From positions 1,562,394 through 1,626,393 of the forward strand of contig OZ024891.1 of the NCBI GenBank assembly GCA_964017195.1: DNA of 64,000 nucleotides. The letters run 5' to 3'. The stretch comes from Siderastrea radians. Lineage: Eukaryota > Cnidaria > Anthozoa > Scleractinia > Rhizangiidae. A program made the position numbers and the translations under genes. Of the stretch, positions 16,976 to 51,000 are shown piece by piece (position 1 is the stretch's first letter; every line of letters begins with the position of its first letter). The notes beneath the pieces were generated by a model. The model had not been told where the DNA came from. It worked only from the letters and a program-made list of their open reading frames with translations, and made no database searches.

Positions 16976-17761
16976 TCAATCCAGTTTCCCAAGAAACTCA
17001 AGCACTTTGGTATGGAATTCTTCTGGGTTGTCAAGGTAACATGGATGTGTTGCTCCTTTCATCATGAAAACCTCACTATTCGGGATCTCTTTCATTTTAT
17101 CAGCATATTGTTCAAAACCTTTGTCCTTTTCCCCATAAACTATTAAAGTAGGAAGATCAAGTTCTTTAAGGTCTGCTTCATAATTAGCTACAGCTCCTGG
17201 AGCAACTGGAATAAAGCCTCGTAATTCTCTGCTGTGCTCTTTGTTCATTACAAACGGTATAGCATACGAACCACTCATAGACGGAGCCACAACAACTGGC
17301 TTCTCTAAGTTCAATTTCTTTAGTAATTCGGCCAGGAATTGAACTTTCCCTTTTGCATCAGTGGGGGGCTTGACACTCATGGAATCTCCATGTTCTGGTA
17401 GATCCACCGCTAATACAGTATAGCCTTTGGAGCTCAAGGCCTTGAATGTTCCGATATCTTGCCAATTTCTGGACGTGAATCTAGCACCATGTAACAGCAA
17501 CACTGCAAATTTCGAGTTTTCAGCTAAAACCTGACGATAAAATATCCCTTTATTGTTGTCATCCCAGCTGAGATATTTCTCCTCTACGGTTTGATCTTGC
17601 GACTCCATGTTGACCACTTTATCATTTGCCGTCACTCCAGAGTTCGTCCACCAGTGCTTCCACAAAGAGGAATAGAAAAACAAAACAGCCAACGCAACAA
17701 CTGAAAGCAGAGCGATGATAAATTTCCATTTGATCGTCACGTTCAAAGCCAAGTTCGCCAT
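16976..17761 (-). CDS. ABHD14: ABHD14-type alpha/beta hydrolase with N-terminal membrane anchor (copy 1)
   Basis: An intact single-exon gene of 261 aa. Residues 12-30 (FIIALLSVVALAVLFFY) form one membrane segment, as in ABHD14A, whereas ABHD14B is soluble. The hydrolase core follows: VLLLHGARF (residues 87-95), AVDLPEHGDS, then the nucleophile region APSMSGSY with S163 in the family's S-x-S-x-S setting rather than the textbook G-x-S-x-G. The acid is D213 (VYGEKD) and the histidine is H239 (GATHPCY). ABHD14B is reported to act as a lysine deacetylase that makes acetyl-CoA; whether that applies here is unknown. The start is the first ATG before the hydrophobic segment, aligning with the neighbour's start. 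It is head to head with the copy at 18353. No intron suggests origin by retroposition or an old intronless lineage. Confidence 0.92.
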   Translation of the reverse strand: MANLALNVTIKWKFIIALLSVVALAVLFFYSSLWKHWWTNSGVTANDKVVNMESQDQTVEEKYLSWDDNNKGIFYRQVLAENSKFAVLLLHGARFTSRNWQDIGTFKALSSKGYTVLAVDLPEHGDSMSVKPPTDAKGKVQFLAELLKKLNLEKPVVVAPSMSGSYAIPFVMNKEHSRELRGFIPVAPGAVANYEADLKELDLPTLIVYGEKDKGFEQYADKMKEIPNSEVFMMKGATHPCYLDNPEEFHTKVLEFLGKLD

Positions 17762-18352
17762 ATTTAGGTCGTCGGTCCCTACCCTTAGTTCTAACGAAGG
17801 AGAGAGGAACGGAGCAAAATACGACCGGATTAGGCTAGCGCAGGGAGGGGAGGGGGGGGGAGGTTAGACTAAATATTCGTAGTTTTTGCTCCATGTTTTG
17901 TTTATTTGTTTTCTTTCCTTATTTTTTCATATTGGCAGGTGACGGGATAGAAGATAGTTTAATATTTTATTTTATTATTACTTTTTTATTTGCGAGGTTT
18001 TACCTGCCTTTCCACTCCCCACGCCCTACCCCCTCTTTCCGCAACTTCTGGCCGTCAAGACGATGTGTTGGCGATGAATATGTTTCCACAGTAATTTTAT
18101 GGTCTTTCAAACATTTATGTGCAGGTTGATCCATATGTCCTTTCAAAAACAGTGTTCATTGCGTGTCGTGTCGCCAACTGGCTCCAATATAATTTTTGCC
18201 CGACCAATTAGGGCACGCGTTCATATCAACAAAAACATGGAATATTGTTTTTGCAGGCCAGCATAGGCAGCTGGGAAGGCTGCAATATCACGCTCGAGTG
18301 TGTCATGTCAAGTGCACTTTACGTTCCTTTGGCTGCAAAATCTACAGATTAC
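17762..18352. promoter_or_regulatory. Divergent upstream region between two ABHD14-like genes
   Basis: A gap of 591 bp between opposed start codons, containing a G-run (near 17847-17860). A TTTTTGCAG acceptor-like site at 18250-18258 may mark the end of a 5' UTR intron of the plus-strand gene. Bidirectional promoter use is inferred only. Confidence 0.4.
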
Positions 18353-19090
18353 ATGAAGGTGGGGCGAGTTTCAACGGTCACGATCAATTGGAGAGTTATT
18401 ATCGGTATTTCTCTAGCCGTAGCTGTAATTTTATTATACTATTTGTTATCACCGGGTGGAATGGAGTTCCGCGGGTACCTCGAATGGGAAGGAGAAGTAA
18501 ACGGGATATATTATCGTCAAGAAAGCCCGAGTCCGTCCGGTGGTCGATTACCCGTGTTGTTTCTTCACGGTCAGGCTTTCTCTTCGCAAACCTGGGATGA
18601 TCTCGGAACTTTGAAGTTCCTGCGTTCGAAAAATTACAACGTCGTGGCAATAGATTTGCCTGGTTACGTGAAATCAAAAGAGTTTGCAACAGTTCCGAGG
18701 ACCTCTGAAGAACGTGCAGCTTTTCTTAACAAGGTCATCGAAAAGCTCCAAATTGAGCGACCTGTTATCATATCGCCTTCCATGAGCGGTTCTTATTCCC
18801 TGCCTTTCATTTTTCAAGGCGATCAGGGACGAAATCTGCGCGGATTTGTTCCCGTGGCACCAGTTGGAACCGAGAAATATACCGAAGAAGAATACAAAAA
18901 ACTTGATTTGCCTGCATTGATTGTCTACGGCGAAAACGATGAAACTCTTGGCCTTTCTTCCCTGCGAAGGCTGAGAAATATCCCCGGAAGTGTTATTCAT
19001 ATGATGAAAGGCGCAGGTCATGCCTGTTACATGAAAAACACCGACGAATTTCATGAGAACTTGGAGAAATTTCTTAGCAAACTAGAGTGA
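18353..19090 (+). CDS. ABHD14: ABHD14-type alpha/beta hydrolase with N-terminal membrane anchor (copy 2)
   Basis: A 245-aa single-exon paralogue of the 16976-17761 gene. The frame is open from an ATG at 18245, but the ATG at 18353 (MKVGRVSTVTINW) is preferred because it aligns with copy 1 just before the membrane segment (residues about 14-31). The core has FLHGQAFSSQTWDDLGT, AIDLPGY, the nucleophile region SPSMSGSY (S145), the acid D196 (VYGEND) and H223 (GAGHACY), so the triad is complete. The two proteins share layout and many motifs but are clearly diverged, so the duplication is not recent. Base composition is somewhat richer in GC than the flanks, as expected of coding DNA. Substrate unknown. 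Confidence 0.93.
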   Translation: MKVGRVSTVTINWRVIIGISLAVAVILLYYLLSPGGMEFRGYLEWEGEVNGIYYRQESPSPSGGRLPVLFLHGQAFSSQTWDDLGTLKFLRSKNYNVVAIDLPGYVKSKEFATVPRTSEERAAFLNKVIEKLQIERPVIISPSMSGSYSLPFIFQGDQGRNLRGFVPVAPVGTEKYTEEEYKKLDLPALIVYGENDETLGLSSLRRLRNIPGSVIHMMKGAGHACYMKNTDEFHENLEKFLSKLE

Positions 19091-31000: not shown

Positions 31001-34000
31001 ATGCAAAATAATGCCGCACTGATTGTATAGAATAAGTATCACCCTAAGTTAAGACACAGAAAGAACTCTCGACGACGCAATTTTCGATGGCCGGTCACGT
31101 GATTTGCAAGAAATGCGCGAGCTTGCGTGACGCGTGTGGTTACCATTGTTTACGCTCAATTGCTCAGCCGTCAATGTTCGCTATGCCTTTTAGTACATTG
31201 TACGATCGCAGGATTTAAGGTTAAATTTTTACAAACTAAGTAATATTCTACTTTGGCGGGACTTTCAAAAGTTAAATAGCGTCATGTTTTCGATCTGCAA
31301 GCCATTCGATGCGCCGCTTTCATGGATGAAGCAGGACTGTCGACGGCATCCTTGCCAGGTTGCCATCTTGCAAGGGTCACAAGCGCATCGCTTGATCCTC
31401 AAAAGAATTGGTATATTCTTACCAAGAACGTCTGTGGTACGCGACCGACAGATTTTGCTAAAAGCGAAATATTTAAGACATTTCCCGACGAGATCCAAAG
31501 CGTTTCAGCGCGGGAACTTTTGCCCGCCAAATCTTCGCACCGCTCGAAGTTTAACAGGATGCCGAGTAATCTGTACGTGGCTTCGACATTTGGTCTATGT
31601 GCTGGTCTCCTGCGACAGAAGGAAATTCCACCAGATAGTCTGGTTCGCTCACCATTATTTAACTCGGTGATCAACATGTTTAACTCCGTGCAGTTAGACA
31701 TGGATCGCGACGGGATCCGGAATTTTGATTCTGGCGGGAATTTCTGCCCAAGCCTGCACTGCTCCCGGCTTAAAGTTGAACTCGAGGAAAGGAAAGCCGT
31801 GATTGAATCTCTCGAGTTGGACCTTAAATCTCTCCAATCTCGAATTAGTGAATTAGAGACCGACATGGAGACGAGTTTCGTTTCCACATCCTCTTCAGAG
31901 CCCTCATCCCCGTCTTCTTCATCCTCGCCATCATGTTCGCCACCATGTTCGCCATCATCTTCATTCAGTTCCATAGAGGACACGAAGAACAGTCCTAACT
32001 TGGGAACAACAACCAGAAAGAGAAGAGTGCTTAACAAGTGCGGTAGAGTGATGGCTTCACTGAGCGATGTCTCACAGAAGTACCAAGAAACAATATCCTG
32101 TGTACTGGGGAACAGTTTTATTTTTGGGGGCGAGGCTGAAAAGGGACAAGTCAGGGATATCATTTCTGGGGTTGTGGAGATGGTCATGGAGGCCAAGGGC
32201 AAGAGAGGCTTCTCTGAGCTTTTGTCTTCAGAAGCAAACGCTCGTGTACTCCAGAGCATGAGAGTTCCCGACTGGGTACTTTTGTACTTCAAGTTACAAG
32301 CGAGGCTTCCGGATTCAGCATGGCAAACACTGCTGAATTTGTCTCAACTTGGAAAAAGTGGGGTAAGTACTTTGTATTAACTTCATCATTATAATAAATA
32401 AAATTATTTATCTGACGTTTAGGGGTGGTGGTACTCGTAGTTTCTTCAGTAGAAATTTGGCTGGTCAGGGCGTCTTGTGGCTTGCATAAGATCTTATTAC
32501 CTTATTGTAAGTTCTTCACTAGTAGAAGAAAAAAAAATTGTTAGAAAATATCCCTGCGCAGAAAATGCCCAATCTAGTTTTGGTATTGATTTAATTAATA
32601 ATTTATTGGTAATGTGATACTGAAATTAATATTTGCTGCTCATAATTTGAATAATTATTGTCCTTTGAAAACTTTGGGCTTGGTCAATTTGCACTTCTTT
32701 GTTTCTTTTTTTTTTCAATCCTTTAATTACATAACTGTAGTCACGGTGTTCCAAGTGCAGAAGACATTAAAAATATTTATATAAATGTGATCATATAACT
32801 TAAGCCCTTTTAAAGCCCATTTTAATTTCGTCTTGTTTTATTTTAGAGGTGTGATGACACACCTTTACTGCTAACCAAGAATGAAATCGCAGCAGTGAAA
32901 AAGCTGGTTTTCTCCATTGTAAGAAAAACAATGAAAATTGCAAAGGTCGATGGTGCAGACTTTGAGGCTTGCGACGTGGACCTCAGCTCCGTTCTAGTGT
33001 GGGCTATACGGGAGCAACGTCTACACTCGCAGGACACAACAGATATGGAATTTAATATTAAACTTGATGGCCGTCCTCTTGGAGGTACGTATTTTATGTG
33101 TCTGTTTTTCTTAAGAAAATGCATGTGCTATGACTATCCATCCAAGTTCATCATAATTACTTATTAAAGCATACATTGTATGTGCCTCACTTCACATATA
33201 TGTAATGACCCAACACACTCTCACAAGCAAATCATGTTATTTTTTCCTCAAGCATTGTTGAGAAGCACATGCTTCTCTAAAAAGTACCTCTCTTGTGCTG
33301 TTTATGTATCTCATTACGTTTTTGTCTCAAATGATTATTATTATTATTATTATTATTATTATTGTTATTATTATTAAATACACTCAAATGCATTTATTAT
33401 TTTCGTATTATGACTGTAAGTGAGATTCATGCTCTATGGCAGTAATATGAATGAACTAATTTTCTCAAACTCATTAATTATGCATTAGGTAATAAACCAA
33501 TTGCCTGGCCCCATTTGGGTCACATTGATGCCCCTTTCTACCCCCGTAAAGAACAGATGAAATGAGGCGTGTTTGGATATCCATACACACCTACTAGTGG
33601 GATTTCCAAACACGTGTGTTTGGAAATCTGAATTAGCAAAAACAATGCAGTGCTTGAATAAAATTAATGTTTAGTACCTTCCATGATAAATTTTTGTTTG
33701 CAGTTAACATTTATGTTTAAATTGGCCAGTTCATGGGATTTACATTTACAGAGCAATTCGTGAACATTGCTAGACACTGTGGACAATTTTTTTTTCTCGA
33801 TTGTACCTAAGACTTGCTGGGAAAGCTACAACTGTTCTTCAAGTCTTCGCACTTGGTGAAGGCAATCTTTGAATTCATGCATTTCCCGAATTGCTAACAG
33901 CCCTTGTTGTTAATATATATCACTTCAATCATGGCAATTCCTTTTTCTTTTGTTTCTCATCGTGTTTACATGATTATTACATTTCTTTTGTTTCTCATCT

Positions 34001-37000
34001 TGTTTACATGATTATAACATTTTCTTGTAGGCAAAGATCAAGTAGCTGTTGGTCTTGCACCCATCGATTTTGAGAACAAGAGTTCAGAAAGTGCCTTATC
34101 CATCTATCCTATTGCCATAGGAAACTGTAAAGAGAAAAGGTCAGGGTAATCATTTCTTTATTTTCTAAACACATACTGTTATGACAGGTGGTAAATAGTT
34201 CTCAAAGCAGTAAACGAGTTTGCAGTTGAACTGCTTGTTAACCTTGGCACGTCTCTTAAAAACAACTGACTGACAGTGACTATTTCATTACAAACAGATC
34301 ACAAACTCTATTTAGGTAACAATTTGAATACACAAGGCAATTTTATATACATATAATTATGTTGGTGTATGTAGAAAAAGTTAACTTGTTTTGAATTGAA
34401 ATTAAGCATTACCCAAAGAGTCGTCAGCAGTGAAACAGAGATATAGCATGTGATATTCATATTATTTTATAAATAAAAGATCAATTTGTGTTTCTCTTTC
34501 AATAGGGCAAATCTAAAACAATTAATCAAGAACCTTAATTGTCAAAAAAATGTCATCAAGAAGCATGGCATTATTGTGGATGGCAAAAAATACAACATCA
34601 CTTTTACAGGTATCCCTTTAAACTTACAGTATAATATGCACAACAAGTATATATGCACACAAGCACCAACGTAACCCAAGTATAACCTTAGGTGGCCACA
34701 TACTTTTTAAATACACTGAAATGGAAAACCAGTCGTTTTAAGAGATCTTTTCTACCTGCTATGACAAAGTTGTAATAAAACAAAGACACTGATTATATGT
34801 TATATAGATATTTCTATTTTTTTTTTATATGTTTTAATGTGAATATTTGTAATGCATTTTTATATTGTTAGGATTTCTTATTGTTTTGTCTTGTATTGAT
34901 TATGCAATTCAGTCTTTTGGCTCTAATGTAATTATTTCGTATTAAACTACTGTATCTATATCTCTATTAGTTTTTTAAAGCTACATTTTGTAATTGTCTC
35001 TTTTTCTTTAATTGTTCCAGTGACTCTTGATTACAAGGCTCTTCTACTTCTACTTAATAAAACAAGTGAAGAGGACTTCCTTCTCGGTGGCAAAGGTTAT
35101 GGCGTTGAATTCTGTGCATTTTGTGATGCAATAAGGGTAATTTTTGTTGATTTTATTCTTATTTAAAGACCATAGTTAATAAAGAAGGATGTACCCACTG
35201 ATTGTTAACCACTTACCATCACTCATGATGAGCTTGAGTGGCTTCAATTGGCATTATCTCAATTCTTTAAATGGTGCTACATTGAAAATTCAGGGCCCCA
35301 TTTCTTAAATTTCCCAATATTTTTTGGGCCCAGAAATAATTAACTATAAAGCTACTTTTTGAGTGCAAAGTCATCCTTGCATTGCTTATAAATTAACTTA
35401 CATGTAGATAGAACTTTTGTTGATTTTGGAAACTATGCAATAAAAGTCTAATTAGAGAAAACAAGTCAAACTGGTTTATCAGCTAAAAACTTCACAACAA
35501 TTCTATATAAATTATTTTGATTGAGAATAACCATGTATGTAGGTCCTGAAAGATATCAGAACTTTTAGGAATCAGGGCTCAGGGCAGTCAATACACAAGG
35601 GCAAGGTGCCAAAGATTTCCCTTATAAGCTACTTTAATTTCTTCACTTCCATTTAGTAAAGAAATTAGTGACAGGCCTGAATAAAACATTTTAAATTAAT
35701 GTCTCTTTAGGCCTGCACATGTCATGGTGCCGACGTAGATGAAACCTGTTTGGATTGTTTGAGGTCAAAAGCCAACATTGGAAGGTATAAGCAACTTGTG
35801 TGGATTTTAAGATACTCAAGGTTTTTAAACTTGGTTTTGAGGTGTTTCAAAGTTCAATGTCTTTCCCTGAAATACACCAGATTCAGAATATTTGGAAACC
35901 CTGTTGTTCTTTGACAGAATTAGTGACCAGTAATTTCTCTTGGATCTTTATTTCAGATGTACGGGTCTCCGGGATGACTTGAACTTCTTGCTGGAAGAAG
36001 ACCTAAACAATGTCAATCTTTGTTCACTTCATTGTGAGATGAGAAATTGTGAACAGCTTTTGGGGTCTCTGGGTTTGTTCGCACATCGCGTAGGAACCCT
36101 TGACAAGTTGAATGAGGCTTTGGATGATTATGGTCCTGAAATCTGTAGGGGATTTCCACGAGTTACTGTGAAAGAACGAAAAGGACAGCAGACTGCAATA
36201 GAAAGGCAGAACATACGTGTGGCCTCTTTTTCAGGTATCCTAGCTGTTAAAAACAATGTAAAGCAGTTTTTCACTTAAGTTTATGTTCTAAATGTGCAGT
36301 TATTAACATCAGTGATGGGATTCATTGAAACATCACATTTTATTACTTATTATCCATTTGTAGGATCTACAGAGAGAGAGATTCTGAAGAACTTTGAAGA
36401 CATCATAGAAAGAGCCCTACCTCTGAATAAAGTTGCATGCTACTATAAAGAGTGCTCTGGAGCTGCAAAGGAAGTCGTTTTGAGTTATGTTACCTTTTTT
36501 GAAGAAAGAAAGTTGGTAGGTGCATGTGATTTACATTATTTGTCCTGCACCTTTTGTGTCTGTTAGGTCATACTTTTAGTCATTAACAAACTTAAAAACA
36601 ATATTTGTTGAATGTATTACTAGTAATATGGATCTTTATTATTTACAGTTTGCAAGTGAGATGCTTAAAAGTGGGACTTTTTTAAGAGATTATGGCTCCA
36701 GACAAGAAAAAGTTGACCTTAATGACACAACAGGTTAATGTCAATGTTGAATTGTTGATTAACAAAACGATCTGAATTTACATGTAGTTGATGGCTATGA
36801 AATGAGGAGACAGCTTACAATCATGTAATTTTATTTAATAAAGGCAGTTGCTTTAACTTCAATCTGCACTTACATTATAGTTGATTAAGTCTACTGTACT
36901 GTAGCTAGGTACTCATCATGTCTCCTTTGCAGTTGCAGACGTTGTAGTCTGTTTGAGGTAGCAGCTCTTTTTTGAAACATAAGGATCAAGTTAAAGTATA

Positions 37001-38962
37001 GTTTATGTAGAAAATATGTGTTATCAGTAAAATTAACTTTTCTTGTTCACGTATTATTTGTTGGTGATTAATTTCCAGCTAAACCACCCCTATAAGGCCT
37101 GCCCCCACCCTCCGTGTGATCAATATAAGATTTTGCTTTTCCCTCCAGATCTGAAAGCCTTCTTGCAAAACTTGTATGCATGTTGGGAAAACAAGCAGAG
37201 GGAAGTGGAGGAAAGATTCCTGTACTGTGAGAGCCAGGTAGCAGTTGAGGAACCAAAGCCCAAAAAGAGGAAAAGAGGACAGAAGAAGGCACCACAACAA
37301 AACCCTGAAGACCCCTTTGCAGAGCTTGCAGCTGAGCTTCAAGTCGAGTTCTTCACTAAGGTATCAATTGGTTCAGTGAGCTGAATGAGAATGATGCAGG
37401 TCTTATTTTATTAGCAATGACCTATTGGAGTTAACTTGCATGTAGTTGTGGGTGCTTTAATTAATTAAAACAGCACACTTACTTAATACTTTCTGCCTCC
37501 TTTGGGCAATTACTGGTGAAACGTTTTTGCATGCATACAAGCCTAACAAAGTTCAATTGATTTCTTTTTCTTTGATTTCTTTCTGCTGGCTCATGATCAA
37601 CGTGCTTGATACAATAATTACACTACAGGTACACTAGCACTGTAGAAATATTTTTTTTTTGATGTTTCCATTTTCGTTTGCTAGCATTCCTTAAAATATA
37701 ACGAAAGGTAAATTAATAATAATTAACTTCGAGTTACTGTCAGTGATCTTAACACTATGAAATATTCTCTATTCCAAGGTTTGCTGTGACTGGAGAGAAA
37801 TCGCTCTCGTTATGCGTGACAGGGTGTTTGAAGAAAAGGAAGAGCAATGTATTGACGTTCATGATGTTAAGGTAGATGTATTTGAGTTTAAGATCAAATT
37901 GAATTAACTTTATGTTGTATTGTGGTTGAATGTTTTCGGATCCTTGGCTTAAAAGATTTCAAACCAGTTCAATTTTTGTTTTTATTTCATTCACGTTATG
38001 AGAATAAGTCTGCCAGACAAAGAAAAAAAATAAAACTGGCTTTAAAATTCTAAACCTATTAGAAAAAATTAAAGCAGAAGTGTTACACAAGGTGGTTTTT
38101 ATACCAGTTGGGTTGCAATGAAACTGCAATAATGACCATTTAACTGCCATAAATTTAGCCTCTCTAGGTTGTGTGACATAACTGTCTTTTAGGAAAAAAT
38201 GAACAGCAGTCAAAATGCGTCTTAAATGTATTTAACTGTATCTATCTTTGGGATTACTTTGTAGTGCAAAGAGTGGGGATTTTTGTTGAAGAAGCTGTTT
38301 GGACTTACTCTTGGCATTGGCGATTACGGGCACCTTGTCGTTGATCATAGTGCCATGCTTCTGCGGCAGTTTCGATCTTTTCATAAATATTCAGGCCAAG
38401 GGTTCGAGTCCTCACACAAGCTTCATCGGCAGTTGTATTCAAGGGCAACCAACCATGATGCATCTGGACCTGGTCAGTCCTGTAAGTATCAAATTTTCAG
38501 GCTGATTATTACCCCATTCCTAGCTTAAGCAGTCACAGACACTTTGAAGGGAAGCAGGCTAGTTAGGGTTTTTTTTGTTTGTAGACTCATGTATTAGGTA
38601 GTTCTTTTTCATTATTCAGCCAGCTCATGTGGTAAATAGTACAAGCTCCCACAAGCAGCTGCCTATTCATTATTTTTAATACTTCTATTACAATAACAAA
38701 TAAAGGATCTGTCTCTCTCTCTCTCTCTCTCTCTCTATCCAGAAAAAAATGAAGCCAAATAATCAACCACTAAATACGCATCTTAATATCTGTATTAAAT
38801 TGGAAAAAAATTTCTTTCAGTGAATCAAATCCTCACCCACTGGTATGCAACCATGATGTTATCGCTACGGTATGCATTCCATGAGGCAAGAGACTGCATT
38901 TCTACAGGTGTGTGTATTAAAAATATTAAAGTGTGAGTTCAGAGTTCATTGTGGACTGCATA

Positions 38963-39007
<45 letters not shown>

Positions 39008-42000
39008 ATAATGTCCTTTAAATTATTATTTTATTGAATAAATAAATACAGTAGTAAAAAATAAATACATAAATATGTACATGGCTTTCAACAGTTATAG
39101 AGTGCAACAAAAGTATTGAACACAGCAGCCAAACTAAAATTATTTTCTCGTAATAGGAAAGAAGAAGTTTGCATACCGCGGGTGTGGTTGGAAACCTGTT
39201 GACGTGAAGTTATGGACAGTGGAAAAGAAAACATGGATCATAACAGTTGCTAAGCTGTTCGATCAGATGTTTGGCAGTGACTTTCTGTCATACAGTTATG
39301 ACAAACAACATGGCACCAAGGTGGCAGATGAAGTGACATCCAATTTGATAGAATACTGCCATGACCACTGGGAAAACCAATATGCCACTTTGAACAAAGA
39401 CTGTCCTGGAGTCATCAAAGGCCAGATACAACAGCCAGCACAGCAGCCAGCACCTTCACAGCAGCCAGCACCTTCACAGCAACCAGCACAGCAGTCAGCA
39501 CCTGCACAACAACCAGCCCTTGTAGAACCAGACATATGTAAAACCTAAGTTGCCGCTATTTTTGTGCTATGTAGGGCTATGTCTTAGCTATGTATAGCTC
39601 AAGACTGCCTATGTTATTACTATGTAACATGCTACAGTACATAGTCCAGGGTATGTAAAACATATTTTGAAACTATGCCGAGGCTATTTGTAAATCACAT
39701 AGTCTTTAAATACATATGTGAACACTAATTAAAATCTTAACATAGCTTTGACATAGATATTTATTTTCTTTGCTTCTGACAAAGAGTCTATGTATTTACT
39801 ATGTGACAATTCAACATAGCTTTTAAATAGCATGCTGACATCCAATTTTATAAGTAAAAGGTTACACAGCTTTAACATAATTCTATTTATTTCCTATGTT
39901 ATGGCACTGACAAATGAAACATCCTTTGTATTTACTATGTGACAATCTGACATAGCTGTTAAATAACCATGTTGAAGTTAACATCAAAGGTAAAAAGGTG
40001 ACATAGCTTTTACATAATGCTATTTATTTCCTATGCTGTGGACATAAACAATCAATGCATCCTATGTATTTACTATGTGACCATCCCACTTAGCAGTGTG
40101 CACTCAACAATACAGTGTTTTTTACAAATGAAAATGCAGTCAAACTTCAATTAAGTGGCCACCCTCTATTACGCTGCCAGTTATCAAAGTTATCAAAGTC
40201 CCCAAATTATTGTTGGTAAAATACTGTATATAAAACCTCTTCAAAGTGGCCACCTCTATAAAGTGGCTTCTGCCACCTTTTTGGACATCTCTATGAGGGT
40301 TTTCTATTTTCTTTACCCCTATTAAGTAACCACCCAAAATCTAATAAATGGACATGGGGGGTCTGAAAAAGGTGATGACCGATTAAGAGTCCGAAATGGG
40401 ATGCAACAACTTTTAGAAACTTTCAAACAGTTATCCTTTGCCAAATCAAATGATCTAGTTTATGCATTGAAGCTCCCTAGTCGAAAGCTACAGACGCATG
40501 TGCAGGATTCTTTTACGTAATACCCTTTGGTATATAGGGTTCTTTGAGACCTTGTCACAGGATTTTCTTGAAATCAGATTTGTGCGAGAGGATATTGCAT
40601 TTCCACACAATTTGTGAATACAGTATTAAATAGGCTTTATTATTTGCAACAGTAGTCACAAGCCTCCAAGCATGTTTGTATTTGGATAAATTGATGTTTC
40701 TACTAAGTCTCATGCTAATAAATTGCTAACACTACTGTTATAGACATCATACCATGGAGTTTGTAATGATAACTAATGTGATAATATTTACAGGATAGTG
40801 ATACTGGTCAGTCTTTTTCATAAGGATCTGGTAGCAGACAAAAGTAATATCCAGATGACACATCTACTCTGAGAAATTTTCTCATAATGTTCACCACAGG
40901 GACAGCCATGAGTCTAAAAGAGAGAACACAGAAAGTTATTAAATAAACATATGAAGCTAACTGTAATGCTCTGATAATCAAACGGAAAATCAGGTGCCCA
41001 ATTAATGGCGTGCTTGCTATTAACAAAAAATACATAGTCACTGCAAGTGGTGGTGATACATAAGAAAATATCTAATGCAAAAGAAGGTACCTGTTTGATG
41101 TCTTCACCCTTGTAAAGTGGTTAACCATTGTTCTGTCCCTGTACTTGGGCAGCTGCTCATCGTCTCTCTCTGAAACTTCTACTACTGCAAAGTACTCACA
41201 GGGCAGGTCACAGCTGCAACATTTCTGATGACTGCATACTAGTCATCACTCATTTCGAATTCATGACCAATCTTCTGCATGCAGGATGCATCGTGGCCAC
41301 CAGCTGTAGTTTGCGAACCATCGTTGAAAGATGATTGAGTTTTGTTCATTTCATTAGACAGACATTCGTCTAAAAGTTTTTGCTTCTTAAATGGTGAAGT
41401 GTTGTTTCCCAAGTCTACTACTGATGCGTCTACGAACACCTCGGATGAAAAACTCCCCACGAATGTCAACAATTTCGTTTTCGCGTGTGGGGCTACTGGA
41501 ATCAATTTTACGTCGCCATCTTGTTGTTTTGGGCACTTCTACTGTTGAATCGTACAGCCAACGGCTACTCCATCTTGGCCTGGACATTTTACTTTAACTT
41601 TTGGGATTTGTGCACTGCGATGTGCATTACACTTCAGTCAATTTGAACGCTACATCGGCCGCCATCTTTTGCTTCACAAGAGCCTGGTTACAAATGCAAA
41701 CTTTGCTTGGTTACCTAGCAGTAAGCAGCAACTCTGGCGGCGGCTTTCGCAAAATGACAGTGCGGTAAAAATCAAACAAGATTTCTTAGGTGTGATATTT
41801 TGCTGTCCAGTGGAAATCGTGCCTCCTCAAATGAAAATACAATGCGATCGATGTGTGATATTTCACAGCGTCTCTTCGAGTTTAAGCGTCGCTTCACTAT
41901 CTTGCTTGTTTGCGGTGGAAACTTCACTTTATCTTCTTTTAAAGCACGTTCCAGTGGATCCTTTCATTAGCTTTTCATTCATTCATTCATCTTTGACACT

Positions 42001-45000
42001 TTTAAAAGGTAAGAAAGAGAATTTTGCTTATTATAAGCTTAAAGGGACAGTATCACAAGGATTTTGCTCACGTTTAATTCCACTGAAAAGCCAATAGTCG
42101 CATTTACATTTATGAAAGCCTAAAAATACTGGTCATTTTCTTGTTCAGACAACATACTAATTCAGTGAAGCTATTACTGAGTGTCTTTGGCCACGGATGG
42201 CCACGATGGAAGTGCATTACAACTTGAAAACGTCCGGCGAAAGTTTTCAAATTCTGTGCTTGTATCTTGCAAAAATCGTTAAAAACTTATTATGGTTTGC
42301 TCTCCTTCCAAACATTCACTTGATATCTCCCTCTTGATGTTCCAGGAGCATTTTGTGTGTGAGTGAAGGCATTTCATCTCAATTTCAGCGAAGTTTTGAC
42401 GAAACGCGAGGAAAATCCCCGTGACACTGCCCCTTTAAGCTTGTTTAAGATTTATTTGAAGATTGTTTTGAAACTTCAAACCGAAAAAAAACTTGAAACT
42501 ACAACAGGTTTTCATGTGCGTTTGAACCAAAGGATCCTCGATTTGACAGACTCTTCCTCTTATTTAGATGTATGTATTGATTTCTTGGAGTACAAGGAAT
42601 GGTGTAGTGCTAGGAAGAGAAGAACTTGAAGTGAGATCAACTTCAAAGCTAACAATATTATTATGAATGGAGGAAAGATGGAACTGGGAGCAACTAAATT
42701 AAGTCAAAACCATGTTCTCATTATCTTATCTTGGATGCTTCTCAAAGAAAAAAAATACATTTTTAGTCTTTGAGTGCTCTTTTGTTTTGTAGTTAAGATC
42801 ATGTTGTTCATTTTACAGCAAAAAGTACCCTCGGAGTTGTATTAACATCACAGATTGAAAATGAACCCATCAATATTAAAAATATATATTACTGTTTTCT
42901 TTATAGGGAGAGAGGAAAACCGAAGAGACAACCTCTGAAAATTGAAAGTTCCTGCAGTAACTGTAATTTGTACTGCTGATTTTTGTATTAGGTGTTGTTG
43001 CTTGGTATTTATACTTTTTTTGCTTCATATATGGATTATTTCAAGTATCGAGCACTGTAAGAGGAAAAGTTTATTATTAAAAACATTTTAAAGTAATCTG
43101 GTGTTCTTGTTTTGATAAGTAAACTGGTTAATTCTGTTTGGATGGATCAGTCAACACCATGTTTCTGCTATGTAAATTCTATGCAATGGGATATACTATC
43201 AATATTTCAAAGCTATTTAAATGCTATTTATACCATATATTTTTTCTATTCCAATGCTATGTAAAATCTGTCTAAACCCTATTTAAAAACTATTTTTGTC
43301 ACATGCTTTCTCTATTTGAAAGCTATTGATTATCTATCTCATTCCTATTTAAAGGCTATTTATATTGTATGTTATCACTATGTCAATGCTATCCAATCAC
43401 TGCCAAGCTGCATTTTGACTTTGCAAAGCTTTATCTAAAAGCTATGTTAAAACTATTTCAAACATATGCAGATACTATTTAAAAGCTATGTCATTTCTTT
43501 GACATTGATCTCTTTGCAACTACATGTACATAGTTTTGAAATAGACTATGTAAAGGTTCCATTTGACTAGCAAAAACATAGCATTTCTTATCAAAAAAAA
43601 ATAGAAGGGGCATATGAATTACACAGAGTTTAAATAATACCACTGTATGGCACTGAGCATAGTTTTTAAATACTTATGACATACCCTTTGCATAGTACCA
43701 TGACATAGCATTTACATAAGTTGTACATAGTGTCTGATTCTACAAGGGAGCACAGCAGCCAGCACCTGTACAACAACCAGCACAGCAGCCAGCACCTGCA
43801 CAACAACCAGCACAGCACCTAGTAACTGGACAAAAGCAAGTAACTACAGAGACAGCAGCAACAGTAACGAAAACTAGTGGATGTTCTCCAAAAGCTGTTG
43901 TCATTGAAGATGAGAGTGATGTCTTGACAACACAGCAAACTGTCCTTCAAAGTGCAATTGCTAGTGCCAAAACTAGAGCTGAAGTAGCTGCTCTTTACAG
44001 TATGATTCCACCATTAAGATCCTCTTCTGCTCTAAAGGCAGTTTATGGTGTGCCTTCCATTTCTGATCCTTTCTCTTCCGCAGTGCGTCCGTGTGAAAGT
44101 GACATCGAGTCTGCTCAAAAGCTACTGATTGACGAGCAAAAAGCTGGCAAGAATCCCACTGGGATTGAGATTGAAGGACTGGGACAGTTTTCTGAAAGTG
44201 CTCTGGCTGTTCTGAAACGTTTTTGTGTGATAGCCCAAATGTATCACAAAGTAACATCCGAAGCCAAATGGCTATCACAAATGAAATTCTCTCCTGGAGA
44301 AGTTGTACAACTCCAAGATGCCCTTTGGCATCATTCAGCCACTAGCCCAATACTGAGGTATGGGAAAAAGGGAATTGATTCCACTTCATTTGCAGATCTT
44401 GTCGAGGAGCGATATGTTGACAGCTTTATTATAGACATTTGTATAAGCAAGTTCCTAGATGAATTCAGCATTAAGGAAAAGAACACCACAGTATACTTTC
44501 CAACCGAGTTTTATGTTTGGATGAGCTCAAATGACAAGAACTTCCAACAGCTCCAGTTAAGCGAAGTAGTAAATTTACAGCTGGCAAATACATGTATCAC
44601 AGACCTGCAACAAATGTTGGTGCCAGTGTATATGCCCAACCACTGGGGCTTAATATTCATTGATTTAGCAAACCAGGAGTTGTATTTTGATGATGGACTG
44701 AAGACAGTTGTTCCCTCCACAGCACTTCCTTCTGTCAAGCACTCTTTAGAATTACTCCTTGAGATGCATCCATATCATCCAGCTCTTCAGACAAAGTTTT
44801 GGCGAAATTGCTTCCACTTTCAGCGCTTTGGCATGCCATCTCAAGCACCAGTTGATTCAAAAATGATTGGTGTTGGAAGCTGTGGGATTGGTGTAATAAT
44901 GGCTGCAAGAGATATCATCCACTATGGACCAGTGTGTGTGAATAACTTTCAGTGGCGATACTGTGATATGGATTTGCACAGGAAACATTTGATGCTGCAG

Positions 45001-48000
45001 ATTCTAAACTGGAAAAATCCATGAACTTCACGCCATTATAATTAATGCAACAGACTATCCTGTCTCTCTTGGGTAGTCAGTTCAGTTTTAACTGTTGTTA
45101 TCTGAAGGCAGAATTACCTCAAACATTTCTTTTTTTATGTTTTGATTTTTTTATCAGCAGTTCTGTCTCTCTTGGGTAGTCAGTCCATTTTGGACTGTTG
45201 TTATCTGAAGGCAGAACTTTAACATTTTTGTTATTATTTTATTTTATTTTTTTAACAGTTCTGTCTCTCTTGGGTAGTCAGTCCATTTTGGACTGTTGTT
45301 ATCGTATATCTGAAGGCAGAACATTAACATTTTTGTTATTATTTTATTTTATTTTTTTTTTACAGTTCTGTCTCTCTTGGGTAGTCAGTCCATTTTGGAC
45401 TGTTGTTATCTGAAGGCAGAACGTTAACATTTTTGTTGTTATTTTATTTTATTTTTTTTTACAGTTCTGTCTCTCTTGGGTAGTCAGTCCATTTTGGACT
45501 GTTGTTATCTGAAGGCAGAACGTTAACATTTTTGTTATTATGTTATTTTCCTTTTTTTACAGATCTGTCTCTCTTGGGTAGTCAGTCCATCTTGGACTGT
45601 TGTTATCTGAAGGCAGAACTAAAATTGTTTTTTGTCTTGATTTTTTAAAGGTTCTGTCTCTCTTGGGTAGTCAGTTCAGTTTTGGACTGTTGTTATCTGA
45701 AGGCAGAACCTAATTTTTTGTTTTGTTTTGTTTTTTTTTTCTACCTCAAGGTCCGTTCCTTGTCGTGGTGAGGTAGCTTGTGTGTCTCAGTGACCTGGAG
45801 CAATACCAGCAAATTAAAAAAAAAGTTTCTCCTGTGGAAGGGCTTCTTGCTGGATTGGTTGAAGGGTAGAGGCCAGACTAATATGGACCATCACCAATTA
45901 TCAAGTTAATACATTGGCTTTACACCCAGAAAGTTCCCTAATTCTTTTAGACTGTTGTTTTCTGATTGTAGAATTTAATAGTTTTTGTTTTGTCTTTTTT
46001 TTAACAGTTCTGTGTCTCTCTTGGGTAGTCAATCCTTTTTGAACTGTTGTTATCTGAAGGCAGAACTTTAACATTTTTGTTATTATTTTATTTCATTTTT
46101 TTTTACAGTTCTGTCTCTCTTGGGTAGTCAGTCCTTTTTGGACTGTTGTTATCTGAAGGCAGAACTTCAACATTTTTGTCATTTGTTTAATTTTTTTTTC
46201 TCTTGGGTAATGGTAAACTTTAACATTTTTGTTATTATTTTATTTTATTTTTTTAACAGTTCTGTCTCTCTTGGGTAGTCAGTCCTTTTTGGACTGTTGT
46301 TATCTGAAGGCAGAACTTTAACATTTTTGTTATTATTTTATTTTAGTTTTTTTACAGTTCTGTCTCTCTTGGGTAGTCAGTCCTTTTTGGACTGTTGTTA
46401 TCTGAAGGCAGAACTTTAACATTTTTGTTATTATTTTATTTTATTTTTTTTACAGTTCTGTCTCTCTTGGGTAGTCAGTCCTTTTTGGACTGTTGTTATC
46501 TGAAGGCAGAACTTTAACATTTTTGTAATTTATTTTATTTTATTTTTTTCTCTTGGGTAATGGTAAACTTTAACATTTGTGTTATTTTTTTATTTTTTTT
46601 AACAGTTCTGTCTCTCTTGGGTAGTCAGTCCTTTTTGGACTGTTGTTATCTGAAGGCAGAACTTTAACATTTTTGTTATTATTTTATTTTATTTTTTTTA
46701 CAGTTCTGTCTCTCTTGGGTAGTCAGTCCTTTTTGGACTGTTGTTATCTGAAGGCAGAACTCTTAACATTTTTGTAATTTATTTTATTTTATTTTATTTT
46801 TTTCTCTTGGGTAATGGTAAACTTTAACATTTGTGTTATTATTTTATTTTTTTAACAGTTCTGTCTCTCTTGGGTAGTCAGCCCTTTTTGGACTGTTGTT
46901 ATCTGAAGGCAGAACTTTAACATTTTTGTAGACTTCCATGCTTGAGACTTCAAAGCTTGAAATATAATATTACGTTTAAAGGGGCTGAAGGACGTCCTAG
47001 AATAACCAATTGTAGTCCAGAAAGTAAATATTTCACAGAAACTTGTCATGAAATGGCCAATCAACGCCAACCGAACTTCCATCAGCGTGGTGGTTTTCCG
47101 GTAGAAAGCTTGCTGCGTGACTTTGTTACTGACGTCCTGTCGAGTTCTTGTTGTCGTTGATCCACCAGTTACACATGATTGCCTGGACACAATTTGATGC
47201 ACACGCGATAGCATAGCTACCATCGTTCGCAAGAACCGAGTCTTTTAACCGACAGCTGCGCAAGTCATTTGTACATAACTGTATTCCTGTGTATATTTTC
47301 CTGTAGATATTTTTCTTCGTTTTGTATATAATTCTCGATTTCCCTGGAAATTATGGCCAGAAACATGCGAAAGTCTGTCAAGGACAAGGACCATTTAAAA
47401 ACAGTAAGGAAAAATGCAAGGCGGAGATGGAGGAACAAGAAAGCAAACGAGAAAATCCAGAAAAATTTGGTTAATTTTATGAAGCTGCCCGAGCGCTGTC
47501 AACATGCTGGCAGCGCGGAGAATCGCAGTCCGGGAGAAGTCGTGGAATTGCCAGCAAGAAAACTGGAGGAAAAACCTCAGAGCCATCGCTCCAATGAGCC
47601 GCGTGTTCTCAACGATGCACCACGTGTTGGCGAAAAGGAGAAACATAGCCCGGCAGAAGTCGTTGAATTGCCAGCAGAAAAACCGGAGGAAAAACCTCAG
47701 AGCCATTGCTCCGATGAGCCGTGTGTTCGCAACGATGCACCACGTGCTGGCGAAAAGGAGAAACATAGCCCGGCAGAAGTCGTTGAATTTCCAGCCAAAA
47801 AAACGGAGGAAAAACCTCAGAGCCATCGCTCCGATGCGCCAAATGCCCCGGCCATAAAAGAAATTCGCCAAACCGAGATCGTCCGATCTGAAAAATTTTT
47901 GGGTTGTGGGACCTTTGGAACATGTTACCTAGCACGCTACAGGGGATGCTTGGTCACCGTGAAAGAATTTAAAGTTCGAGAGAAACTGTCCTTGGATGAC

Positions 48001-51000
48001 GTTAAAAAAGACGTTCTCCACGAGGCAACAATGATAACCTACTTGGGAGACCACCCGTGCCTGCCACTGTTGTTTGGAGTAGTTACAAGGAGCCTGCCCT
48101 TGCGTCTGGTAACTCAGTTTCATGGCGAAAAAGAGCAAAGTTTAACACTGTCACGCGCTGTGCGCAAGAAGGAACTCGGCAAGCAAAATTGGCTGGAAAT
48201 CCTAAAAGGAATCATTAAAGGCTTAGACCATACCCACAAACGTGGCATTCTCCACAACGACCTGAAAGCCAACAACGTTGTGTTAGAAAAGCGATCAGAA
48301 GCGTGGAATCCAGTCATTATCGACTTCGGGAAAGCTCGTTTTATTGCAAATCCAAAACCGAACATGTCTTTGTCAGTCTCCAGCCAAGACGCTTACCGAA
48401 AGCGATACCCACATATCGCCCCGGAGATTGTTTCCGGTAAAGGTAGACAAAGTATTGAGTCGGACATTTTTTCTTTTGGAAGAATTGCAGTAGATGTCTT
48501 AGATTTGCTGCCGACGGCAACTGCGAAATCTTTAAAGGCGGCAAATAAAGCATGCTCTGTCGAGCCAACAAAACGCCCGGCGTTAATCAAACTATATGCC
48601 GCCCTTTTAGAGTAACTGTAAATGAGACAATGTCTTGTTTTCTTTTGAATCCTGTTTGGAGCTAGTGTGCCTAATTTCAGGCCACAAACAGGGGACTACA
48701 AACGTAAGTCATATATCGAAGAACAGAAGCTTCTGCGAAAATCAATTTAATACGTTTTCAGTGTTTCACTTTCACGTTTCCGTTCAAGTCGTATTTTAGC
48801 TTGTGTGCATGCATAAATATTCGAGCGAATTGTGTAAGTCTTATATTTTTGCAATAAATGAATTTTCCAGCAGATCACCGCTAATTTCTTCGCGCGAGGG
48901 TGAACGTGATCGGATGTTCTCGCGCGTATCACCGAAATTTTCCTCGAGTTAAGACATCTGGGAATTATATCTGATGTCAAAACACGCCAGATCTTTGGGG
49001 ATTTATGTTTCACTTTGCATGCGCTTTGTAAGTCAATAAGTCGGAAAAAGCGTTACCGCAAACATTAAAAACGACGCCGCAGGCACTCTAATCTTGCGAA
49101 CTTTGGTTTTCGGTTACAGTTAATAATAAGCCATGGGTAGATTCAATCTACCCTTAGCCTAATTTGCATAAATTTTTTTCGTGGCCTAAGTTTGTTATGG
49201 TTCTCACAATATAACACAGTCAAGGACGCAAGAAGGTTTATTTATTAACTTCACTATCCCATGAAAGTGCAGGTAAAATTGACTTTTTGCTGAACACTGG
49301 GCTCCTTCATTTGTTATTTTCAACTTTCTTTCCGCAGATTTTGACGAGTGTTTGAGGAGCCCATGTTTTAATAGCGCCACGTGTGTTAACACCTTCGGAA
49401 GCTTTAAGTGCATCTGTCGCGCAGGATTTAAAGGGAAACTTTGCGAACAAGGTAATTTTAAAATATATCTACAAAATTGGCATCCTAAGAGAATAGAAGT
49501 TGATGTTTCGCGATGCTTGCCAGTTTTGCATTTTTCTTTCTTTTTTTTATTGCAGACGTGGACGAATGTACCTTAGTGCGATGTCAGAATCATGGAACTT
49601 GTGTGAACACTGTAGGCTCCTTTAAATGTCAGTGTAAACCTGGATTCACTGGTCCACTATGTGAAAATGAAGGTACGGGATACAATCACTTAGGCTACGT
49701 TTACACGGGACCAGTCCGGAACCGTTCCGAACCGGACCGGACCGGATCGGCTTCTGTTTACACGGAACCGTGTGGAACCGATCCAGGTGTTTACACGGGA
49801 CCGTTCTGGAACCGGTCCGGATCGGATCCGATACTGGACCTGCAAAACAGCAGGTCCAGTTTTGGATCCGTTCCGGACCGGTTCCAGAACGGTCCCGTGT
49901 AAACAGAAGATCCGTTCCGGACCAGTCCCGTGTAAACATAGCCTTAAATCATGTTTGTGTGTATGCTTAACAAATTTCAAATCAAGACGGCTATTCAGAA
50001 GTCATCTTCCCCACTACAATAGACTACATCGTAGAGAGGGGCCAACCTCGTTCCCATGGTCTTTCGCAATCCAACATGGCGGCGGGTCGGGCGCGAGTCG
50101 TCATCTATGCCAAAGACCACGGGAACGAGATTGGAGACGTCTAGGTCTTTCAACAGCATAATACCATCACGAGAGCGTCAACGAAGGCAGTCGAATAACA
50201 CCTTAGGGAAACTGGCAACGCTATCAATATTGACAACACTAGAATTAAATCGCCAAACGACAACGGAGATTCAGTGCTAGGCTCTCTTCCTCAACCGAGA
50301 TTGTGGATTCGACCTTCCAGCGGTTTACCTAGACATTTTGTTTCAGGAGTGAACATTTATCACTTAAGGTGTCTGAACACAGTTTGCGCGCGCTCTCATT
50401 CTCGTTCCCAGAGCCTACGATCTGTTTTGTCAGCGGTGGGATCGTAGGGCTCTGGTATCAGCCATTACCGGATGTCGTGAAATTCACAACATCCGGTAGC
50501 GCATGTCCACTTCGTTAAGGTGCTATTGCGCCTGCTCCGTTCTCGTCCGTGGAGCTCTGGGCATGACAATTCTGACAACAACTGAGAAATTTGAATTCCT
50601 ATCGATCGAGTCGTGGTGCTTTATGGATCGACTAAAAGCTGTTCGGGACCCTCTTACCACCATTTTCACTACTACGCGACTGTTTTTTCAAAACACCTCT
50701 GAGCACTTTGCAATACGCTTCCGTCAATCATGCCTTATATGGAAAGTGTGTGATGTTACCGCAATTGAATTGAGCTCGAAGGAATATAGCCTCCCACGCA
50801 GTCGTTTTTAGGAGAGTCTGCGCAGCATTGCGCAGTTAACAACACCTTTTTTAGCCTCTGGGAATGCTCCAAAATGGGGTTTTTTTCCCTAAGGATCGCA
50901 CATATCGCGCCTTCTTTGTGCTTTTGCACAAAAGGAATTTTTTTTAAAGAAATTTCGACATTTCTTCAGAATTAAATACCCGCTCGGTGGATTATCCTAT

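Follow-up and report, generated by a model that had tools for sequence, protein, structure and literature searches.

A stretch of 64,000 nucleotides from the coral Siderastrea radians (contig OZ024891.1, positions 1,562,394 to 1,626,393; hereafter the window, whose numbering is used throughout) contains at 31322-45024 a gene on the forward strand which probably encodes, in one protein, a nuclear recombinase of the RAG1/Transib superfamily, a flexible Q/P/A linker and a C-terminal protease of the Ulp1/SENP type (clan CE), and the copy in the window is probably a host gene. The gene structure, the RAG1-type fold of a relative, the relevant residues, the Ulp1-type fold and the presence of the fusion in one member each of two anthozoan clades are regarded here as established; either half may be enzymatically active. 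An earlier note made from the letters alone had proposed a diverged RAG1/Transib-superfamily protein joined to a cysteine protease, and this proposal is supported by the relative's predicted fold, the residues and the match to Ulp1-type proteases; neither of the two outcomes that it had listed as grounds for refutation was encountered. Papers are cited below by PMC number for the parts of their text that were available. No fusion of a RAG/Transib core with a protease was found in the literature searched, which mostly excludes subscription journals, and the available part of PMC8355894 holds nothing on one; the earlier note, too, knew of no such pairing in described RAG or Transib elements.

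Gene structure

The gene comprises 15 exons in a single open frame of 1482 residues with a stop codon at 45022-45024, and all 14 introns are bounded by GT-AG, which agrees with the at least 14 in-phase exons counted previously. An additional exon may lie upstream of exon 1.

31322-32362, forward: exon 1; ATG at 31322-31324, family-specific N-terminal domain, Ser/Pro-rich stretch, then the start of the RAG1-matching region (RAG1 residue 459 onward)
32847-33084, forward: exon 2; D421 (33066-33068), putative counterpart of RAG1 D600
34031-34139, forward: exon 3; donor directly after 34139 (gtcagg), chosen by contig L001 and homolog lengths
34506-34609, forward: exon 4
35021-35136, forward: exon 5; D501 (35029-35031), putative counterpart of RAG1 D708; C529/C532 (35113-35115, 35122-35124), of C727/C730
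35711-35784, forward: exon 6
35957-36234, forward: exon 7; LHCEMRN, with H586 as putative counterpart of RAG1 active-site H795 and E588 at the D797 position
36364-36515, forward: exon 8
36649-36733, forward: exon 9
37149-37360, forward: exon 10; holds a basic stretch
37779-37871, forward: exon 11; gene models P0004 and P0007 lack it as one block
38265-38481, forward: exon 12; H857/H862 (38331-38333, 38346-38348), putative counterparts of H937/H942; E882 (38406-38408), of E962
38821-38907, forward: exon 13
39157-39521, forward: exon 14; YRGCGW segment and first half of the Q/P/A repeat linker, final 5 bases transposon-derived
39517-43748, no strand assigned: DNA transposon insertion; 18-bp terminal inverted repeats CCCTTGTAGAAYCAGACA, AG target duplication
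43747-45024, forward: exon 15; second half of the linker and Ulp1/SENP-type protease domain (about 43945-45021)
Within exon 15, forward: protease residues H1356 (44641-44643), D1372/D1373 (44689-44694), Q1423 (44842-44844) and C1436 (44881-44883)

Two protein searches yielded 15 related proteins (P0001 to P0015), with Oculina, Actinostola, Exaiptasia, Acropora and Paramuricea as named sources, of which we take the first four to be Hexacorallia and the last to be an octocoral. By tblastn, P0001 to P0004 match separate window exons in the correct order (7, 7, 10 and 6 stretches, respectively, each missing some exons). A genomic contig of a further relative, L001 (DDLT01000143.1), carries exons 1-7, each open, and by eye shares intron place and phase with the window gene at all six introns that it covers. 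Hence, the exon structure is not a product of chance. Exon 1 itself is matched by P0001, P0009-P0011, P0013 and P0015 (blastp) as well as by exon 1 of L001. An alternative donor of exon 3, adding two residues (1484 aa), was rejected, as L001 and the aligned homologs favour the one listed. Internal gaps of at least 18 residues in the homolog models have 28 ends, of which 10 come within 3 residues of a junction in the window, where 2 to 3 would be expected by our own estimate (about 9% per end); 10 of these 28 are situated in the variable part of exon 1, which contains no junction.

L001 belongs to a metagenome-assembled genome labelled Lentisphaeria and is nearest to P0013-P0015. Since it carries intron-split exons of an animal family, it was taken as animal contamination in a bacterial genome record. 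Single-protein locus scans found no relative in viral contigs or bacterial genomes, a search of low sensitivity in which the bacterial scan also missed L001. A DNA-pattern search gave none in viral contigs, L001 alone in bacterial genomes and none in plasmids, and a search of BFVD returned nothing at E ≤ 0.001.

Probable recombinase core

Every active-site or zinc-binding residue of RAG1 that was looked for has a putative counterpart in the window protein, as judged from its sequence. The RAG1 residues compared, numbered after a check against a PDB chain, are those which we take to be catalytic and zinc-binding, and D600 presumably lies in a DG motif 19 residues ahead of the compared stretch. 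Conservation was counted over 16 proteins, each denominator including just those rows in which the region is reached and present. At D421 (in KLDGRP), the first Asp, 13 of the 14 rows with the motif have D and P0004 has Q; the second Asp (D501, in VTLDYK) and the C529-x2-C532 pair are each kept in all 15 rows reaching the site (P0015 ends earlier). The LHxExRN motif, here LHCEMRN with H586 and E588, is present in 12 of 12 rows holding the region, and H857-x4-H862 followed by QGFE (E882) in 8 of 8, the Glu always standing 20 residues after the second His. This is also the H942-E962 spacing of RAG1, as the earlier note had pointed out. By motif and spacing, D421, D501, E882 and H586 were assigned as likely counterparts of D600, D708, E962 and H795, the last of which has been named as an active-site residue of RAG1 (PMC7204232).

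The motifs quoted in the earlier note (C529/C532, LHCEMRN, H857/H862, E882) are all present where it had placed them. As matches to RAG1 they were well chosen, with two amendments: LHCDIGN of RAG1 contains H795 and D797, the catalytic D708 being located in GYDEKLV (with VTLDYK as its counterpart here) and E962 in SEGNE, and the first Asp had gone unnamed. An assignment of LHCDIGN/LHCEMRN as the D708 site was accordingly rejected.

The predicted core structure is that of P0003, a relative from Actinostola. Its model begins with an RNase H fold, has RAG1 as its top structural match and covers mouse RAG1 459-1008 at 12-16% identity in the structural alignments; HzTransib is the second fold family in the VIA structure list, with Hermes and P-element structures ranking lower in the structure-search lists. 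The core is therefore predicted to have the RAG1/Transib fold.

Protease domain and linker

The C-terminal half resembles Ulp1/SENP proteases by predicted fold and, separately, by sequence profile. The window protein and P0003 have in common the order His-Asp-Gln-Cys (H1356, D1372/1373, Q1423, C1436), presumably the active-site order of peptidase family C48, so that the domain is best assigned, from model and sequence, to the clan CE Ulp1/SENP (C48) proteases. The domain has no Pfam match, and exon 15 alone gave nothing significant against the PDB, the best rows being exosome chains at 0.1. When long proteins were searched with the protease only, none of 1428 candidates reached E ≤ 0.01; as the known P0003 was missed too, this carries little weight.

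Core and protease are separated by a gap at 39.5-43.7 kb, which is explained by a transposon inserted inside a single exon. Its inverted repeats match at 17 of 18 bp and AG flanks it on both sides; no further copy of the repeat occurs in the window, even with up to 3 mismatches. Empty sites with overlaps of 0-6 bases were compared: the frame survives at 2 and at 5, and the flanks truly match at 2 alone. Removal of the insertion at this 2-base AG overlap restores a single frame across the linker with an unbroken QQPA repeat, and exons 14 and 15 were thus once one exon encoding the end of the recombinase, the linker and the protease. The GT-AG pair taken here to bound intron 14 sits inside the transposon's inverted repeats. 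The transposon is hence a candidate for intron gain, as these dinucleotides could serve as splice sites; splicing there would leave nine extra in-frame bases in the mRNA. A smaller element with inverted ends (41-nt, 85% complementary) is nested in the 4.2-kb insertion at 42035-42442.

Family relationships

The phylogenetic tree was built with P0005 reduced to the portion that matches, with P0012 lacking its first 430 residues and with trimmed C-termini. It contains a weak group A (P0002, P0004, P0009 and P0010; 81/74), a group B (window, P0005 and P0001; 99/99) and a group C of nine rows (100/99). Within group B the window gene pairs with P0005 (96/92), a sequence filling 16% of the columns. 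The nearest relative is an Actinostola fragment with 73% identity over 113 residues. In P0003 (group C), one gene model contains the core and the same protease, joined by a low-complexity linker of another kind, so that the fusion is present in another anthozoan, where the earlier note had suggested looking for it. With one member each in groups B (window) and C carrying the Ulp1-type protease, the fusion should predate the split of the two groups. Several of the predicted proteins are partial, and absence of the protease from these is uninformative.

In group A, P0002 and P0004 end in a different domain shared by both, with NTCPIDN, GQHY and YDG motifs and invariant Cys, His and Asp. By eye its Cys-His-Asp set recalls ubiquitin-specific proteases, and it is possibly a second type of ubiquitin protease; no match was found in PDB or Pfam. 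P0009 and P0010, from short contigs (longest 2312 and 5040 bases), stay open in a single frame across the counterparts of exons 1-8, which resembles spliced RNA without being proof of it. The Actinostola protein P0012 carries a TNP-like RNase H domain ahead of the core, which an A2 member matches at E 2.7e-13; this fusion may be a merger made in gene prediction.

Comparison with known systems

The RAG1 and RAG1L proteins (ProtoRAG, RAGL) are similar to the window protein in core fold, in the counterparts of D600/D708/H795/E962 and of the ZnC2 and ZnH2 residues, and in the H-to-E spacing. The window protein differs by its low identity (12-16%), by lacking a RING or zf-RAG1 Pfam match at E ≤ 1 (1484-aa model; an upstream exon is possible) and by the C-terminal protease, and the locus differs by its 15 exons and by the lack of a match to kelch, a domain of RAG2L (kelch-PHD), among the 10 neighbouring open reading frames (ORFs) scanned. 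Corals are known to harbour RAGL transposons in which RAG1L and RAG2L are paired (PMC7204232, PMC9435367). As described in PMC4411706, the Transib superfamily comprises Transib, TransibSU, Chapaev and Chapaev3, its extra modules being RING and Chapa domains. Transib, represented by HzTransib, shares the core fold; canonical Transib proteins are without identifiable domain beyond the core (available part of PMC4411706), whereas the window protein adds a protease, and no CACWRTG ends with a 5-bp duplication were found in the flanks of its gene that were searched. Chapaev and Chapaev3, known from sea anemone (PMC4411706), enter this comparison by description only.

As for the protease, Ulp1/SENP enzymes (peptidase C48) agree with it in fold, residue order and profile match and differ in that it has no Pfam match. 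The pairing of a recombinase or transposon protein with a ubiquitin-like-protein protease is shared by several mobile elements: Ulp1/C48 domains occur in plant CACTA-ULP elements, in KI-MULEs (Mutator) and in oomycete Cryptons (PMC2528002, PMC13317346, PMC3212892). For deubiquitinase-bearing Helitrons, a protection of transposition proteins from degradation has been suggested, and cnidarian genes joining deubiquitinase-type domains to transposon-associated regions are mentioned (PMC9741609). These elements belong to other recombinase classes, however, with no RAG1/Transib among them in the available parts of these four sources.

Host gene or mobile element

The gene is single copy within the window. 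A search of 24-31.3 kb against 45-56 kb for CACWRTG-like ends carrying an exact 5-bp duplication gave 0 pairs, where the control mean was 0.34, and a Transib-like element with recognizable ends was rejected on this ground. None of the 25 inverted pairs displayed, of 53 in 29.5-47.5 kb, brackets the gene. Among the 10 neighbouring ORFs, 5 match common domains (a kinase, two hydrolases, VWA and EGF) and 5 match none; as for kelch, Pfam gave no match in these 10, the ORF lists starting at 40-90 aa, so that short exons could escape. Two alpha/beta-hydrolase ORFs, each nearly 300 codons, lie on opposite strands at 16979-19087. A protein kinase with repetitive N-terminus is encoded as a single ORF just downstream (47332-48612), and about 35 bases past the stop codon begins an array of tandem repeats (45060-46930) whose units measure roughly 100 bp. 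Given the single window copy, the 15 exons, the lack of transposon ends found and a nearest relative at 73% over 113 residues, the window copy most likely arose from a transposon and has long been a gene of the host.

Weighing of alternative explanations

Several observations weigh against the interpretation of a RAG1-type recombinase–protease gene. The modelled core is that of the relative and not that of the window protein, and the mean predicted local distance difference test score (pLDDT) is 52.8 for the core model and 45.2 for the protease model. The CxxC region of the core model (about 190-270) lies below 60, the HxxxxH-to-E region (529-584) mostly so, and the root-mean-square deviation to RAG1 is near 11 Å; zinc sites and third catalytic residue are therefore unplaced in the model. 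Of what the earlier note expected from structure prediction, the RNase H start and the RAG1 match were thus obtained for the relative, the zinc site being visible as residues in the sequence but not modelled. Its suggested profile-profile comparison of the core with RAG1 was likewise weak (hhalign P 0.011-0.036), with a score exceeding all 81 shuffles run. Scored by a core hidden Markov model together with 2000 shuffles, RAG1 comes second of 2001, behind a single shuffle. No Pfam RAG1 match was obtained for the core, nor did the A1 profile retrieve any RAG1 chain from the PDB at E ≤ 10; the best row of that search, a TATA-binding protein (E 0.0062), is a low-complexity linker match. By eye, the splice sites of intron 14 are poor consensus matches. 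Finally, Actinostola has at least 5 gene models, two of them near-identical (P0006, P0008), which is transposon-like; these two are possibly haplotype copies. An origin of the core in a different DDE family (P element, hAT, KDZ, CACTA), with a likeness to RAG1 confined to the common RNase H fold, is very improbable. The missing Pfam transposase match, the lower-ranking Hermes and P-element structures and the TNP-like domain of P0012 speak for such an origin; the Pfam matches of 15 rows at E ≤ 10 include no KDZ, a family presumably covered by Pfam. Even less credence is given to two adjacent genes wrongly joined across 4.2 kb. The size of that gap, its weak splice sites and a joining read from genomic DNA would fit such an error, but excision at the AG duplication yields one in-frame exon with continuous QQPA repeat, and P0003 shows the same core-protease order. 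On the empty-site reconstruction the two-gene explanation was rejected, and the halves are read as one gene, as the earlier note had it.

The main rival to an old transposon-derived gene family is an active element family: the protein could be a transposase, encoded by a transposon family that is active or was so until recently and that belongs to the RAG1/Transib superfamily as a new clade or as Chapaev, and the window copy would be one insertion with decayed ends. This is possible, if not the expected outcome. The retained catalytic set and the several Actinostola models point that way, a protease would help an element to escape host control as suggested for the Helitrons above, and several transposon classes carry Ulp1/C48 or deubiquitinase domains (PMC3212892, PMC2528002, PMC9741609). 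Against it stand the absent end pairs and bracketing inverted pairs, the 15 exons with introns common to a distant relative, and the pairing of the window gene with P0005. The old gene family is hence considered most likely. A comparable, minor chance is given to a retired recombinase, whose core would have lost cleavage and would act as a DNA-binding and dimerization scaffold bringing the protease to chromatin. The junction to a regulatory-type protease, the Q of P0004 in place of the first Asp and the E found at the D797 position in 12 of 12 rows holding the site would be in line with a scaffold; a pure scaffold, however, needs none of the D/D/E, H795, CxxC and HxxxxH counterparts, which are kept in all reaching rows except for the Asp of P0004.

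Significance

In the likeliest mechanism, the core would bind DNA as a dimer and may still nick and hairpin it, and the protease would strip SUMO (or NEDD8/ubiquitin) from the recombinase or from DNA-bound and chromatin proteins at its sites. Such removal of tags would shield the complex from modification-driven silencing or turnover. RAG1 is the textbook tamed transposase, which assembles antibody genes and through whose relatives the origin of adaptive immunity is traced, and it touches ubiquitin signalling itself via its RING domain (PMC4411706). A RAG1-like core with retained active-site residues, joined to a SENP-type protease in a many-exon anthozoan gene, is, in the literature searched, a domain design new for RAG, RAGL and Transib. 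The gene may represent a second taming of a RAG1-type enzyme, tied directly to ubiquitin-like signalling.

More speculatively, and with rather less likelihood than the active-element and retired-recombinase alternatives, the family might constitute a separate, anthozoan-wide RAG1/Transib branch which has been kept as host genes for hundreds of millions of years with an intact cutting site and exchangeable C-terminal ubiquitin-like-protein proteases. If so, these proteases would be a standard module, of the Ulp1/SENP type in two clades and of another Cys-His-Asp type in a third, and animals that have no V(D)J recombination would link regulated DNA cleavage to deSUMOylation.

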